DNA of 46,541 nt. It comes from Candidatus Thiopontia autotrophica. GTDB lineage: Bacteria > Pseudomonadota > Gammaproteobacteria > GCF-002020875. Under the pieces are notes generated by a model. The model ran no database searches, had not been told where the DNA came from, and saw only the letters and a program-made list of their open reading frames with translations. The DNA is taken from contig JACNFK010000025.1 in the NCBI GenBank assembly GCA_014384675.1, forward strand, positions 1-46,541. Direction: 5' to 3'. This document shows, in pieces, positions 8,955 through 15,128 of the stretch. Both the position numbers and the translations under genes were made by a program. Within the stretch, counting starts at the first letter, position 1, and every line of letters begins with the position of its first letter.

Positions 8955-9604
8955 CGACCTGGCTCATCACCCCAAAGAACTTTATGCAGTTGGATCTGGA
9001 AACGTACATGTAGGCTATCATCCAGTATCCATGATGCCAACTCGGAGGGGGCAAGTTTTCCGGCTGCTGGTGAAAAAATCACCTCACATTGCTGCTCCAG
9101 TTTATGCTCACGCAGAATCGGCAAAAACCAGTCGTAGTCAGCACGATCAACCATAACTATTTTCAGCTGATCATGATGGGTAAGCTGATCAAGATTACTC
9201 CAGAGGTTTTTCTCTTCCTCGCCGGAACCTGGGGTTTTGAGATCTACCACCCTGTTAACCCGATGGTCTACCTCAGAGATATCCAGCATGCCGCCTGTCT
9301 CCAGAGAGACCTTGTATCCAGCATCACAGAGCTGTTCCAGAAGCGGATACACCCCCTTTTGCGCCAGTGGCTCACCCCCAGTAACTGTGACGTGATCTAC
9401 ATTGTTGCCTCTTATCTGGCCCATAATGGCAGGAACAGTCATACGCTCCCCACCATGAAAAGCATATTCGGTATCACAATAACTACAGCGCAGTGGACAT
9501 CCGGTCAGACGAACAAATGTGGTCGGCCAGCCAATAGTACGGCCCTCTCCCTGAAGTGAGAGAAAGATTTCCGTCACTCTGAGGTCTACAGCACTACCGC
9601 TCAT
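8951..9604 (-). CDS. queE: 7-carboxy-7-deazaguanine synthase QueE (radical SAM)
   Basis: QueE is a radical-SAM enzyme that contracts 6-carboxytetrahydropterin to 7-carboxy-7-deazaguanine. The protein has 217 residues. The cluster-binding CxxxCxxC is CPLRCSYC (Cys 36, 40, 43), preceded by the substrate-site segment [18 protein letters not shown], and TGGEPL follows. It overlaps queC downstream and cpoB upstream by four bases each, so it belongs to the cpoB-queE-queC part of the Tol-Pal operon, as in Pseudomonas. Confidence 0.96.
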
Positions 9605-10203
9605 CTGTTGATTTTTTTCAGCTTATCCGCAGCACGTTTGGCCTGGGCTGAACCAGGGGATTTTTTTACAATACTCTGCAGAATTGATTTGGCCTGAGCA
9701 TACGCCTTGCTGGCCTCACTCTTGTTGCCATTGATGGTGTGGAGACGGCCAATCCAGTACCAGGAATCACCTGTGTATTCCCCCTTGGGAAATTTCTTGA
9801 TCAGTCGGTTGAAGGCACTCAATGCCTTTTGGTACTGGATTGATCTAACCAGGGCAAAAGCACTGTTGTATGCATCAATCTCTTTGCTGTCAGATGACCC
9901 TGTTATAGATGGGTTGGCCTCAACAACTCTGCTCTTGCCATCTTCAATCTTTTTTATGCGCTGATCGAGATCGATATAACTGTTGCTCTGCTGTCTCTTC
10001 AGCAGTTCCATCTGGTGCACCATCTCCTCAACCGCACCATAGTTCTCCTGCAGATCTTTTCTTAGATCCCGCATCTCCATGGTTAGTACAGTCAGGCGAC
10101 TCATCTGACGTTCCAGTCTGTCAATCCGTTGCTCAACTGAACCCGCTGCAGATACCGCAAAAGATGCTAATCCTGCTACCAGAATCAGGAGATGACGATT
10201 CAT
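9601..10203 (-). CDS. cpoB: cell division coordinator CpoB (YbgF)
   Basis: CpoB is a periplasmic protein that links Tol-Pal outer-membrane constriction to septal peptidoglycan synthesis. The 200-residue product has a signal peptide (about 1-20, ending AVSAAG), an N-terminal coiled coil with VEQRIDRLERQMSRLT, a linker near 85-105, and a C-terminal TPR domain with ALSAFNRLIKKFPKGEY and GDSWYWIGRL. It is somewhat shorter than E. coli CpoB (263). Its stop overlaps the queE start by four bases. Confidence 0.93.
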   Translation of the reverse strand: MNRHLLILVAGLASFAVSAAGSVEQRIDRLERQMSRLTVLTMEMRDLRKDLQENYGAVEEMVHQMELLKRQQSNSYIDLDQRIKKIEDGKSRVVEANPSITGSSDSKEIDAYNSAFALVRSIQYQKALSAFNRLIKKFPKGEYTGDSWYWIGRLHTINGNKSEASKAYAQAKSILQSIVKKSPGSAQAKRAADKLKKINR

Positions 10204-10208
10204 CTCTC

Positions 10209-10778
10209 TTACTGAGGATATATCAGTTCAACACGTCTGTTCTGCGCCCAGAACCCCTCTTCAGACCCCTGTTCCAGCGGGGTCTCTTCGCCGTAGCTGA
10301 TGATCTCAATCTGACCACTTTTAACACCTTCGGCTATCAACAGATCACTCATGGTCTGCGCTCTACTCTCTCCCAGAGCCAGATTATATTCACGGGAACC
10401 GCGCTCATCCGCATGACCCTCCAATCTGACCAGCATGACGGGGTTACTGACGAGGTAAGATGCATGTGCCTTGACTACGGTTAGATCTTCACCACTGACG
10501 CTACTACTGTCGTAATCAAAGAAAAATAGTCTCTGTGCTGGAGGCTCCAGACCTACCATTACCCCACCTTCAACAGGGGCTATATCACCCTGATAATCAA
10601 CCGCCTCACCCTCGACAGTTAGGCGTTGAGTCGCTGCACTACCTGCAGTAACCGGATCATTCTGACCAACCTCAATAACTTCTATAGCGCCAACAACCTC
10701 TCCATCCAATGGATTGTTAAGACTACTACACCCATTTAAAAACAGCCCAATTAACAGAATAATACCTACACGCTTCAT
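10209..10778 (-). CDS. pal: peptidoglycan-associated lipoprotein Pal
   Basis: Pal is an outer-membrane lipoprotein that binds peptidoglycan and TolB. The 189-residue precursor has a signal sequence with lipobox LNGC (acylated Cys17), a low-complexity linker, and a C-terminal OmpA-like domain with LEGHADERGSREYNLALG and RRVEL, which carry the usual diaminopimelate-binding Asp and Arg. It lies between tolB (10-base gap) and cpoB (5-base gap). Lgt and LspA, encoded elsewhere in the window, would process it. Confidence 0.97.
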   Translation of the reverse strand: MKRVGIILLIGLFLNGCSSLNNPLDGEVVGAIEVIEVGQNDPVTAGSAATQRLTVEGEAVDYQGDIAPVEGGVMVGLEPPAQRLFFFDYDSSSVSGEDLTVVKAHASYLVSNPVMLVRLEGHADERGSREYNLALGESRAQTMSDLLIAEGVKSGQIEIISYGEETPLEQGSEEGFWAQNRRVELIYPQ

Positions 10779-10788
10779 CCATCTACCC

Positions 10789-12051
10789 CTATCTCAAAAA
10801 CGGGGACCAGGATGGTTCCCGTACATCTTTTCCTTCCAGGCTAAGCTGCTGAACACCTCCACCATCAACAGATGTCACCTCCAAAACACCCTCCCCATCA
10901 TTTTGAGTAGCATACACGATCAGGCGGTCATTTGGGGCAAAACTGGGCGATTCATCCTGCCTGTTATCAGATAAAATTCTGACAACTCCACTATTCAGAT
11001 CCTGCACAGCAATTCTGTAATTTCCGGAATCACCACCAAGCATCACAAGATACCTACCATCTGCTGATAAATCAGGGCTAGTATTGTAATGGCCTTTGTA
11101 AGTAAGACGTTGAGCTCGACCACCTTCTTTACCTATCTGATAAATTTGTGGTCGCCCACTCCGATCAGATAGAAAAACTATCCTGTCCCCACTTGCTGAC
11201 CAGACTGGCTCTGTATCCACAGCCCGATTTTTTGTTATCCGTTTAAGCGTCGAACTACCAATATCAAGAGTGTATATCTCTGAATTACCATCACGAGAGA
11301 GGGAGAGAGCCAGTTTGCCTCCATCTGGCGACCATGCAGGAGCACTATTCTTGCCCTCAAAACTGGCTATTTTTGTACGTTCTCCAGTGTATACCCCCTG
11401 AATCCAAACTTCTGATCTCCTGTTTTCAAAAGAGACATAGGCAAGTTTCCTGCCGTCTGGCGACCAACTTGGGGAGAGCAGAGGAGCAGATGAGGTCAAC
11501 ATCACCTGCGCATTCTCCCCATCTGCATCAGCAAGCTCAAGGGTATAAATTCGATCTCCATCACCCCTGTTTTTTACTGATATGTAAGCAATATGGGTAC
11601 TGAAAACTCCACGCACCCCGGTCAACTTTTTGTATACCAGATCACTTACTGCATGGGCTGTCTGTCGAATCTTTTTGTCACCACCATCTCCCAATGAGAA
11701 ACGGTAAGGCTTCATTAACAATTTTTGTTGATATACATTAATTAATTGAATCTCAAGTTTTGGTTTACCACCAATATTGATCACCCTTCCCGTCAGCAGG
11801 GTTGGAACCTCCAACATGCGCCAGTCAGTAAAATTGACATTATCAATATGAGTTGGTTTTGAGATCATCTGCTCTTCTGGCAGTGGCGCAAACTCACCAC
11901 TAAGACGAAAATCATTAGCCACAATTGCCGATCCAGGAAATGGGGCGATAGCAATAGGGAGGGCTGTCTCGTTACCTCTGGTAATTGTTATCTCCAGGGC
12001 TTGAGTAGCCGTAGCAACCATACTCAATAACAGGATAAGCCTAATTTTCAA
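10789..12051 (-). CDS. tolB: Tol-Pal system protein TolB
   Basis: TolB is the periplasmic partner of Pal and TolA. The 420-residue protein has a signal peptide ending near TATQA, an N-terminal alpha/beta domain (about 20-165), and a beta-propeller of repeats marked by SPSWSPDGRKLAYVS, APAWSPDGGKLALS, PVWSASGDRIVFLS and PDLSADGRYLVML. Length is near E. coli TolB (430). Its start overlaps the end of tolA by 11 bases. Confidence 0.97.
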   Translation of the reverse strand: MKIRLILLLSMVATATQALEITITRGNETALPIAIAPFPGSAIVANDFRLSGEFAPLPEEQMISKPTHIDNVNFTDWRMLEVPTLLTGRVINIGGKPKLEIQLINVYQQKLLMKPYRFSLGDGGDKKIRQTAHAVSDLVYKKLTGVRGVFSTHIAYISVKNRGDGDRIYTLELADADGENAQVMLTSSAPLLSPSWSPDGRKLAYVSFENRRSEVWIQGVYTGERTKIASFEGKNSAPAWSPDGGKLALSLSRDGNSEIYTLDIGSSTLKRITKNRAVDTEPVWSASGDRIVFLSDRSGRPQIYQIGKEGGRAQRLTYKGHYNTSPDLSADGRYLVMLGGDSGNYRIAVQDLNSGVVRILSDNRQDESPSFAPNDRLIVYATQNDGEGVLEVTSVDGGGVQQLSLEGKDVREPSWSPFLR

Positions 12052-12889
12052 ATGTCATCTCCAACTCTCTTAACTCTCTTCTCAGTGCTGCAGACCCCGG
12101 TACAGGAAAAGGAGCTGCCCGGTTAACTGCCTGTACAACCGACAAATCAAATGCCTCATTACCACTTCTGCTAACTACTGTGACCTTACCAACATGACCA
12201 CCAGGAACAAGGGTTACCTTTACTCGGCATGAACTATCTTTTGGCGCACTTTTTGGCCTATTCCAGACCCGCTCAATCTGCTGACGAATGGTTGCTCGCA
12301 ATTGTGCCAGCTTCTGTGGGCCAGCTCCAGACTCTCTTCTGGAATTAATAATCTGTTCACTCTCCAGTTCAGCCTCAAGCATCATCTCCTCTCGTAACCT
12401 CTTCTCTCTACGCCTCTCTTTTTCCTTTTTTTCCAGCTCTCTCCTCTTTTTCAGCTGCTGCTGCTTAAGCCTCTTTGCTCTCGCCTTTTTCTCTTTGGCT
12501 TTTTTCTCTTTGGCTTTTTTCTCTTTGGCTTTTTTCTTACGCTCCAGCTCTCTCTTTCTCTTCTCTTTCGCCTTTTTCGCTGCAGCCTTCTTTTCTTTCT
12601 CTCTCTTCTTTTTCAGCCTCTGCTGCTTCAGTTTGTTCTCTTTTTCTCTTTTTAACTTCTCTTTTCTCTTACGCTCTCTGTTCTTGATCTTTTGCTCTGC
12701 CGCACGCTTGTCCGTAATTTTTTTCTCTTCTATCCTCTTGAGCACCTCACCATCAACTGCATAGGCACGAATCACCGGGGCATGGGACAAGGGTTTATCA
12801 CTATCAAACAGCTCTACGTCAACCAGCAACACAGCCGACACCAGCACAAGATGAAGAATCAGAGATGATCTTAAAGGGGGGAGATCCAC
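12041..12889 (-). CDS. tolA: Tol-Pal system protein TolA
   Basis: TolA spans from the inner membrane through the periplasm and couples TolQR energy to Pal. The 282-residue protein has an N-terminal membrane segment (about 8-25, SSLILHLVLVSAVLLVDV), a very charged Lys/Glu-rich helix from about 55 to 180 with KEKKA tandem repeats, and a C-terminal TonB/TolA-like domain (CRVKVTLVPGGHVGKVTVV). The start is GTG at 12889. In most relatives tolA follows tolR directly; here 717 bases and a reversed gene intervene, so tolA needs its own promoter or long read-through. On the minus strand TTGTCA, 17 bases, then CGTAAT upstream is a weak candidate. Confidence 0.94.
   Translation of the reverse strand: MDLPPLRSSLILHLVLVSAVLLVDVELFDSDKPLSHAPVIRAYAVDGEVLKRIEEKKITDKRAAEQKIKNRERKRKEKLKREKENKLKQQRLKKKREKEKKAAAKKAKEKRKRELERKKKAKEKKAKEKKAKEKKARAKRLKQQQLKKRRELEKKEKERRREKRLREEMMLEAELESEQIINSRRESGAGPQKLAQLRATIRQQIERVWNRPKSAPKDSSCRVKVTLVPGGHVGKVTVVSRSGNEAFDLSVVQAVNRAAPFPVPGSAALRRELRELEMTFEN
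12483..12537. repeat. 15-bp tandem repeat inside tolA
   Basis: Three copies of a 15-base unit (plus strand GCTTTTTTCTCTTTG, first copy with one change) stand head to tail, followed by a partial fourth. They encode successive KEKKA blocks of the TolA helix. The unit keeps the reading frame, so copy-number change would only lengthen or shorten the helix. Confidence 0.85.
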
Positions 12890-12988
12890 GGTCAGCTCTC
12901 TATCACATCAATCAAGAGGCATGAATACCGCCAATTACGAATGGTTATAGAATTCATGACAAAAAAACCTAATATCTCTTTATGTGTA

Positions 12989-13151
12989 ACCTAAATCCTG
13001 CAAGTACTCGCACCTGCTCTGCGCAAGCTCTTGATCCGTATAACGATATTTTCTCCCTTGGGTGTAGCAATAAGTACATCACGCGGTCGAAATTCGCTCT
13101 ACGAACCGATGTCTTGCACATATCAAACACTATCACTTGCAGGATTTAGGT
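12989..13151. repeat. 163-bp element with perfect 17-bp terminal inverted repeats
   Basis: The ends ACCTAAATCCTGCAAGT (12989-13005) and ACTTGCAGGATTTAGGT (13135-13151) are exact reverse complements. The interior is not a simple long hairpin and has no open frame. Size and ends fit a miniature inverted-repeat element; I do not see clear target-site duplications. It sits where tolR and tolA are normally joined. Confidence 0.8.
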
Positions 13152-13180
13152 GTAATAGAGAACATGTATAGAACAAATCA

Positions 13181-13208
13181 TTGACTTTTGAGTGTTGCCG
13201 TGTAGACT
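13181..13208 (+). promoter_or_regulatory. possible sigma70 promoter for the ComEA-like gene
   Basis: TTGACT (13181-13186) and TAGACT (13203-13208) are 16 bases apart, about 105 bases before the gene start. The -35 matches five of six consensus bases and the -10 four of six. Confidence 0.4.
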
Positions 13209-13314
13209 GAATGGAAATAGTCACTACAAGAGAGGTGTTTTGCATCTACGGTACAGAACTATTTAACAAGAGTAAAGTTGCATTTTAAATCGTTATTTTT
13301 TAATGGAGGATGGT

Positions 13315-13563
13315 ATGAAATATTTTATAGGTTTAGTTATGTTTATGTTTTCATTGACTGTTTTTGCTCAAGACAAGATCAATATAAACGAAGCAGGGTT
13401 AAAAACATTGATCAAACTGGAGCATATAGGCAAGAAGAGAGCGCAGATGATAATCGATCATCGTGAACTCTCCCCATTTGCAACCATCAGTGAGATTATG
13501 AACATCACCGGGATCGGCAAAAAGGCCTTTGAGGCGAACCGTGACATAATCACCGTGGAGTAG
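13315..13563 (+). CDS. ComEA-like exported helix-hairpin-helix protein
   Basis: This 82-residue protein has a signal peptide (KYFIGLVMFMFSLTVFA, cleavage before QDK) and a ComEA-type domain with two helix-hairpin-helix motifs, LIKLEHIGKKRAQMII and IMNITGIGKKAFEAN. ComEA relatives bind double-stranded DNA in the periplasm during natural transformation; many short stand-alone versions have no proven role. The start at 13315 has GGAGG at good spacing; an in-frame ATG at 13303 lacks one. The gene lies on the opposite strand from the Tol-Pal genes and is AT-rich compared with them, which suggests insertion. Confidence 0.85.
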   Translation: MKYFIGLVMFMFSLTVFAQDKININEAGLKTLIKLEHIGKKRAQMIIDHRELSPFATISEIMNITGIGKKAFEANRDIITVE

Positions 13564-13571
13564 AGTCGTGA

Positions 13572-13605
13572 TCAGGCCAGTATATTATGTATTATGCCGG
13601 CCTGA
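13572..13605. terminator. shared stem-loop between convergent comEA-like gene and tolR
   Basis: TCAGGCC (13572-13578) and GGCCTGA (13599-13605) pair across a 20-base loop. The structure fills the gap between the two stop codons. There is no T-tract on either side, so a terminator role is only suggested by position. Confidence 0.45.
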
Positions 13606-13606
13606 C

Positions 13607-14026
13607 TTATGGCTGATCGGTCACTAGCCCCACACTGGGAACACCGGACTGTTGCAACAACGCCATTATCGAGACTACAGTACCGTAATCCACCTTGTGA
13701 TCACCACGCACCAGCACCTCTGTACCCGGCTTCCGATTCATCAGTACCGATACCCGTTTCTGTAAAATATGCTGCTCAACCGGCTCCTCGGGATGATCCC
13801 CAATATTCATATAGAATGATCCATCCTCACGTACAGTAACAACCACCGGCTCCTGCTTGCTATTCTCCACCAGCTCTGCATCCACCTTTGGCAACTCAAC
13901 CTTCACCCCTTGGGTAAGTAGAGGTGCAGTTACCATAAAGATAATCAGCAAAACCAGCATTACATCAATGTATGGGACTACATTTATTGAGGCCATGGGC
14001 CGTTTACGAGCACGCTGACGACTCAT
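13607..14026 (-). CDS. tolR: Tol-Pal system protein TolR
   Basis: TolR is an ExbD-type inner-membrane protein that forms the proton-driven motor with TolQ. The 139-residue protein has one membrane segment (about 18-38, VVPYIDVMLVLLIIFMVTAP) carrying the essential Asp of the PYIDVMLVLL motif, and a periplasmic domain. It overlaps tolQ by four bases. Downstream, where tolA would be expected, are a stem-loop and the reversed ComEA-like gene. Confidence 0.97.
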   Translation of the reverse strand: MSRQRARKRPMASINVVPYIDVMLVLLIIFMVTAPLLTQGVKVELPKVDAELVENSKQEPVVVTVREDGSFYMNIGDHPEEPVEQHILQKRVSVLMNRKPGTEVLVRGDHKVDYGTVVSIMALLQQSGVPSVGLVTDQP

Positions 14027-14718
14027 TCCAGCTCTTCATCATCAGCTTCATCACTATGCGACTGATGCCTGAGAATACTGGAGAACTCCTCCAGAAAAAT
14101 ATCATAACGATTATGTAGTCGCTCAATCTCGGTGGAGAAACGGTTATAAAAGATTACTCCCGGGATCGCAGCAAACAGCCCGATGGCTGTTGCCACCAGC
14201 GCCTCAGAGATGCCCGGAGCAACCATGGCGAGAGTTGCATTACTGGTGGCGCCGATAGCACTGAATGCGTTCATGATCCCCCAAACCGTTCCAAACAGAC
14301 CAACATATGGGCTGGTAGATCCAACCGTAGCCAGAAACGACAGGCTCTCCTCCAGTTGATCGAGATCACGATTAAGTGCCACTCGCATGGCACGCCCGGA
14401 ACCATCAACCACATCAGAGGATCTCATCCCTGAACGTTTGCGCAGCCTGATAAATTCACGGAAACCGGAGACAAAAATACCGGCCATACCATTTGGTTTT
14501 TTCCCCTCAAACTGACGAAACAGATCACTCAGACTTTTGCCGCTCCAGAACAGATCCTCAAAACGGTCAGCCGCCTCAATGGCCCCCCTGAAGTCATGCA
14601 GTTTGCGAAATATGATATTCCATGACCAGATAGATGCAGCCACCAGTAAAAGCAGAATTAACTGTACTACCGGGCTAGCATCCAGAATTAGCGCTGTAAT
14701 TGAGAGTTCATGGTTCAT
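14023..14718 (-). CDS. tolQ: Tol-Pal system protein TolQ
   Basis: TolQ is an ExbB/MotA-type proton-channel subunit. The 231-residue protein has the expected three membrane segments: about 14-36 (VVQLILLLLVAASIWSWNII), 130-160 (the conserved LATVGSTSPYVGLFGTVWGI) and 168-190 (ISEALVATAIGLFAAIPGV). It overlaps tolR and ybgC by four bases each, so ybgC-tolQ-tolR form one translationally coupled unit. Confidence 0.97.
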   Translation of the reverse strand: MNHELSITALILDASPVVQLILLLLVAASIWSWNIIFRKLHDFRGAIEAADRFEDLFWSGKSLSDLFRQFEGKKPNGMAGIFVSGFREFIRLRKRSGMRSSDVVDGSGRAMRVALNRDLDQLEESLSFLATVGSTSPYVGLFGTVWGIMNAFSAIGATSNATLAMVAPGISEALVATAIGLFAAIPGVIFYNRFSTEIERLHNRYDIFLEEFSSILRHQSHSDEADDEELE

Positions 14719-15128
14719 GATTTCTGTATCTTTTTATAAAGTTTCTCAGGCAGTGGTACAGGCTTGAATGTCTCACTGTTCAGACTGGCAATTTTAACAG
14801 CTCCACTACACAAAGGTCTCTTCTCACCGCTACGATAGATATCCTGCCTAAGGGATATACTCGCTTTACCAACTTTTTGAGACGAGGTTACAACCTCAAG
14901 CTCATCATTGAAACGTGCTGGTGAATTGTAATCAACTGTGACCGAACGGACCGCAAAAATCACCCCTTCATCCTCTATCATTTGGTCTTGCTCAAACCCT
15001 AAGAATCGCAACCACTCTGTTCTGGCACGCTCCATATATTTCAGATAGTTGGCATAGTAGACCACGCCACCGGAATCGGTATCCTCATAGTAAATTCGCA
15101 CTGGAAAACGGAAAGGTCTCATATTCAT
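14715..15128 (-). CDS. ybgC: acyl-CoA thioesterase YbgC, hot-dog fold
   Basis: YbgC hydrolyses short-chain acyl-CoA or acyl-carrier thioesters and is linked to the Tol-Pal operon across proteobacteria. The 137-residue protein has the hot-dog active-site segment YYEDTDSGGVVYYANYLKYMERART, given here only as the motif name DTDxxGVVYHxxY; the catalytic Asp is within YEDTDSGG. Two ATG codons (15128 and 15122) are possible; neither has a strong ribosome site. The stop overlaps the tolQ start. Confidence 0.93.
   Translation of the reverse strand: MNMRPFRFPVRIYYEDTDSGGVVYYANYLKYMERARTEWLRFLGFEQDQMIEDEGVIFAVRSVTVDYNSPARFNDELEVVTSSQKVGKASISLRQDIYRSGEKRPLCSGAVKIASLNSETFKPVPLPEKLYKKIQKS

Follow-up and report, generated by a model that had tools for sequence, protein, structure and literature searches.

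Two insertions as the probable cause of a Tol-Pal operon broken between tolR and tolA in Candidatus Thiopontia autotrophica

The Tol-Pal operon of Candidatus Thiopontia autotrophica (genome G000) is broken between tolR and tolA, and this has probably been brought about in the lineage of this genome by two successive insertions, that of a comEA-like gene with its spacer and then that of a MITE (we put the probability of this reading at about 0.75). The rearrangement is true and specific to the lineage, and both of the events that compose it belong to known kinds. The window, that is the whole stretch of 46,541 nucleotides that was analysed, is contig C25 of a genome of 1.58 Mb in 39 contigs which is 98.6% complete.

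The Tol-Pal cluster and the tolR-tolA junction

Open reading frames and profile searches identified all seven Tol-Pal genes (7/7) in the usual order and on the reverse strand. These are ybgC, encoding a thioesterase (14715..15128; Pfam 4HBT_2 / 4HBT, above the cut-off), tolQ (14023..14718; MotA_ExbB, 127.5 bits), tolR (13607..14026; ExbD, 97.4 bits), tolA (12041..12889; NCBIfam tolA_full, 92.2 bits), tolB (10789..12051; Pfam TolB_N and PD40), pal (10209..10778; OmpA) and cpoB (9601..10203; TolA_bind_tri and TPR), so that the order tolQ-tolR-tolA-tolB-pal by which the cluster is recognized is found at this locus. The GTG start of tolA lies at 12889 and the stop codon of tolR at 13607-13609, which leaves a gap of 717 bp. 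Within it lie a 163-bp element bounded by perfect inverted repeats of 17 bp and, read from the opposite strand, a comEA-like gene. An Rfam search of 12500-14100 gave no match.

The first-pass annotation had described the continuity of the operon as broken between tolR and tolA, and the locus as a departure from the usual order. The break is confirmed, as in the five congeners the two genes are -4, 7, -4, -4 and -4 bp apart (overlapping or separated by at most 7 bp in 5/5), whereas the order of the genes has not changed. The comparison with close relatives that had been proposed also goes against the refuting condition set at first pass, a split common to all of them, as neither the split nor the element was found in any congener (0/5 for each). 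TolR was matched in 32 of the 37 genomes searched, and the next open reading frame on the same strand began -11 to +50 bp after tolR in 28 of the 29 loci measured, the window locus excluded. The sole wide gap among them (L019 of G034) has 671 bp with a BrnA-antitoxin-like open reading frame and a palindromic repeat. The split of G034 is also seen at L208:5921-6600 and represents a second, independent break between tolR and tolA. Moreover, among the named genomes the gap was at most 49 bp in all of the 79 measurable loci (from the best 80 of 595 TolR loci; the one left out, L096, has a sequence that stops ahead of the next gene). In these counts tolA was taken as the next same-strand open reading frame of at least 100 aa, TolA homology being confirmed for part of the loci only. 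The tolR-tolA junction is tight and has been broken independently at least twice among the loci examined, and a break at this point is rare, though its parts are ordinary.

The proteins encoded on both sides of the gap are altered as well. In alignments with the five congeners the C-terminus of TolR in G000 is 1-3 residues shorter and the cytoplasmic N-terminus of TolA is 8-18 residues shorter, with the membrane helix retained. As these changes lie right at the junction, they suggest that the insertion replaced the overlap between the tolR stop and the tolA start.

The 163-bp element and its relatives

The element runs from CC to GG over 161 bp (12990..13150), or over 163 bp when the adjoining A and T, which lengthen the inverted ends, are counted as well. 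Its terminal inverted repeats, at 12989..13005 on the forward strand and 13135..13151 on the reverse strand, are identical in 17/17 bp by end comparison, in agreement with the earlier description, although this pair was missing from the output of the repeat finder and was seen by other comparison. Comparison of the flanks showed the 5-bp target duplication TGTAA on the left (12985..12989) and on the right (13151..13155). No open reading frame of at least 60 aa is found in the interior, and as a single strand the element forms one extended hairpin (-70.4 kcal/mol, z -7.2). Nine copies or derivatives, including the window copy, are found in G000, so that the search for the inverted ends elsewhere, suggested by the first-pass annotation, was successful. 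Since the element recurs in the genome with 5-bp target duplications, its inverted ends are no chance pairing. It is a transposed non-autonomous element, a MITE: short and without a transposase gene, with terminal inverted repeats, a target-site duplication and several dispersed copies.

Compared with the window copy, those of contigs C6, C28 and C20 are 86%, 87% and 69% identical, C39 holds a 38-bp remnant, and the copies of C22, C19, C29 and C23 form a sister group with different ends (77-79% over the core). Other target duplications are TATAA at C6, TAGTA at C28, TATTA at C22 and TATGC at C23. The 5-bp duplication is exact in five of the nine copies in G000 and in 8/19 copies overall. In the flanking 5-mers of these 19, which are the copies with both ends placeable and with borders set from CC to GG (decayed or single-end copies, mainly of G183 and G057, being omitted), the two sides agree at 74 of 95 positions, compared with 45.5 after shuffling of the sides, and none of 20000 shuffles scored as high. 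The copy of C29 scored 2/5 in this test and would score 5/5 with its border shifted by one base. Such matching flanks across copies are what the transposition of a non-autonomous element leaves behind.

Relatives of the MITE were found in 4/273 other genomes of the class, belonging to four other families, and no match was obtained in the plasmid and phage collections. One of these genomes, G208 (L176, L184, L186), contains very short derivatives of 38 and 61 bp in which both ends are intact, and the 5-bp duplication is exact around the derivatives located at C24 and C102. A parent insertion sequence would be expected to carry the ends CCTARATCCTGCAAGTG about 1-2 kb apart; no paired ends at 1-2 kb with at most 2 mismatches were found in G000, G057, G183, G208 or G260. 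The IS1380 family was considered as the source, as the available part of a paper on its member ISEcp1 gives a left end (IRL) of CCTAGATTCTACGT and a 5-bp duplication (PMC7864471). The MITE ends likewise begin with CCTARAT and are flanked by a 5-bp duplication, whereas the rest of the end differs. This likeness makes IS1380 a possible parent; no IS1380-type transposase was found in G000, however, and no matching ends surround those of G057, G183 and G260.

The bacterial MITEs Correia, ERIC and Chunjie, as presented in the accessible portion of a review (PMC10969869), resemble the element in being short and non-coding, with inverted ends, target duplication, hairpin and shortened derivatives. 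The ends of the G000 MITE are CCTAAATCCTGCAAGT with a 5-bp duplication, in difference to these families, and it has no Rfam match. Moreover, its 15-letter ends had no match in the literature searched. The family, a small mobile element common to unrelated gammaproteobacteria, therefore seems to be undescribed as far as the literature search tells, which makes it of interest in its own right.

The consensus fold of 12 copies keeps the terminal stem of 25 pairs, of which 6 show two-sided change. With a covariation term on the unfavourable side (+0.78), however, this fold gives no grounds to propose an RNA structure under selection apart from the inverted ends. The MITE end was also examined by eye as a sigma-54-like site, and this reading was discarded: the spacing misses the consensus by one base, and GG is absent from the window copy. 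Three copies (L067, L068 and L074; C6, C28 and C39) end in TATAAT 6-9 nt ahead of an ATG, including those of smpB and tsaE. This motif can be explained by a duplicated target resembling TATAA, and promoter reuse is possible at these copies.

The comEA-like gene and the order of the insertions

The comEA-like gene (13315..13563, or with a start at 13303; forward strand) encodes 82 aa and matches Pfam HHH_3 with 53.5 bits (cut-off 27) and NCBIfam TIGR00426 with 51.1 bits, which is 2 bits below the 53.1 cut-off. ComEA is the periplasmic DNA receptor of natural transformation. The protein of G000 resembles it in a signal-peptide-like start, recognized by eye, and in the helix-hairpin-helix DNA-binding domain found through HHH_3, and differs in that its gene lies inside the Tol-Pal cluster. 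The gene has a G+C content of 39% against 50.6% for the window (among the lowest 1.2% of 249-bp windows), so an AT-rich ComEA-like gene on the opposite strand, as annotated at first pass, is indeed present.

This is the single ComEA match in G000. Among the sequences of the genus its closest relative is the ComEA of G004 (55% identity), which is also the closest congener by TolR (88%). The gene lies between the DNA ligase gene (lig) and tsaD in G004 (L206:5390-5665), and is flanked by folK and an SDR gene in G001 (L209:1731-2021); G003 has a more distant ComEA-like gene (37%) at another site. No ComEA match was found in G005, where lig and tsaD overlap, nor in G002, but the latter genome is only 84% complete. 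The tsaD of G002 (L223, 2028-3049 of the reverse strand) appears as two pieces that overlap and differ in reading frame, owing to a frameshift or to an error of the draft assembly. In G000 the lig-tsaD-plsY-folB-folK-SDR neighbourhood is intact; its lig-tsaD spacer has 71 bp and no comEA, and its folK-SDR spacer contains 124 N and is hence unreadable there. In three species of the genus comEA is thus placed at three different junctions, with the surrounding gene order retained each time. Neither a target duplication nor a shared sequence was found where the comEA insertion meets its borders, the two junction regions had no direct or inverted repeat of at least 7 bp in common, and the spacers of the gap had no similar locus at E 0.05 among the loci compared.

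Given that comEA is single-copy in G000 and occupies other sites in two congeners, it has probably been relocated inside the genus rather than acquired, which is the simplest account. An arrival from outside the genus directly into the tolR-tolA junction, with the AT-richness as a mark of origin, seems unlikely to us. The difference of 39% from 50.6% G+C would suit it, as would an identity to the G004 ComEA of only 55% where TolR reaches 88%. Nevertheless, the best match in the genus is that of the closest congener, a second, native comEA is absent from G000, and the comEA of G001 is AT-rich too (36% in a locus of 44%). Far less probable still is a chimera assembled at the repeated element: the assembly is a draft of 39 contigs and the MITE is multicopy, but TGTAA matches on both of its sides, comEA adjoins tolR without any involvement of the repeat, the genes on either side follow the usual order, and TolR and TolA have altered ends at the break.

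In the preferred account, that of two insertions, the only comEA-like gene of the genome, together with its spacer, would have arrived first, in the opposite orientation and at the precise boundary of tolR and tolA. The overlap of the tolR stop with the tolA start would thereby have been lost, and TolA would now be made from an in-frame GTG just ahead of the membrane helix, presumably at the cost of the translational coupling between tolR and tolA. The non-autonomous, hairpin-forming MITE would then have entered the spacer that separates comEA from the divergent tolA, and duplicated TGTAA. This order is suggested by the flanks of the MITE, at 12890-12984 (95 bp, on the tolA side) and 13156-13314 (about 160 bp, the region upstream of comEA): both are non-tol DNA, so the spacer is likely to be older than the MITE. 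The first-pass annotation had seen the operon as separated by the element; its mobile nature is supported by the nine copies and their target duplications, but it was apparently the comEA-bearing spacer, and not the MITE, that parted tolR from tolA. A broader idea, which we regard as rather doubtful, is that comEA moves about habitually as a single gene within the genus, being found at three otherwise syntenic junctions in three species, and that one of its landings remodelled the force-transducing Tol-Pal operon, so that the TolQR motor came to be controlled separately from TolA-TolB-Pal.

Transcription of the divided cluster and comparison with known systems

A consensus scan gave a promoter-like site for comEA (TTGACT-16-TAGACT, 13181..13208, forward strand), of a kind whose count is not above that of shuffles. 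Consensus scans of the gap found no strong reverse-strand promoter ahead of tolA, the best and weak candidate (TTGTCA-17-CGTAAT, 9/12, 12934..12962, reverse strand) failing the scan rule and being no better than chance. No intrinsic terminator was found behind tolR in the gap. A 36-nt stem-loop (13571..13606; -17.7 kcal/mol, z -4.1) lies where the ends of tolR and comEA converge, with no T-run on either side.

The antisense comEA with its own promoter-like site, together with the stem-loop behind tolR, makes a division into ybgC-tolQR and tolA-tolB-pal-cpoB, as two transcription units, the most likely arrangement as judged from these signals. Separate promoters for the two parts of the cluster are plausible, and tolA would be read from an inferred promoter in 12890-13150. 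The lack of a strong tolA promoter and of a terminator after tolR keeps alive the alternative that the split is cosmetic, with read-through from tolR to tolA persisting and the MITE hairpin and the antisense comEA tolerated in one long transcript. In its favour, a Chunjie MITE is reportedly tolerated within an operon transcript of Geobacter, to go by the title of that work. However, an antisense gene with its own promoter-like site and a stem-loop directly behind tolR speak against it, and we hold continued read-through to be possible and somewhat improbable.

The biological effect of two units may be small, as Tol-Pal is already read as more than one unit elsewhere. According to the available part of one study, the cluster is transcribed as ybgC-tolQRA/tolB-pal-cpoB in Escherichia coli and as ybgC-tolQRAB/pal-cpoB in Pseudomonas putida (PMC5479800), and at least two promoters are given for the enterobacterial cluster in an excerpt of another (PMC6013679). 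The gene order is described as highly conserved in the text available from a third (PMC7391070). No published break at tolR/tolA was found in the titles and abstract openings searched. With such a natural break it can be tested whether the expression of motor and transducer has to be coupled. Compared with the usual Tol-Pal cluster, that of G000 has all seven genes in the same order and on the same strand, but at tolR/tolA its continuity is interrupted by a MITE and a gene in antisense orientation. Whereas the boundary between units lies at tolA/tolB in E. coli and at tolB/pal in P. putida, as far as the portion available of the same study describes them (PMC5479800), the break in G000 lies at tolR/tolA.
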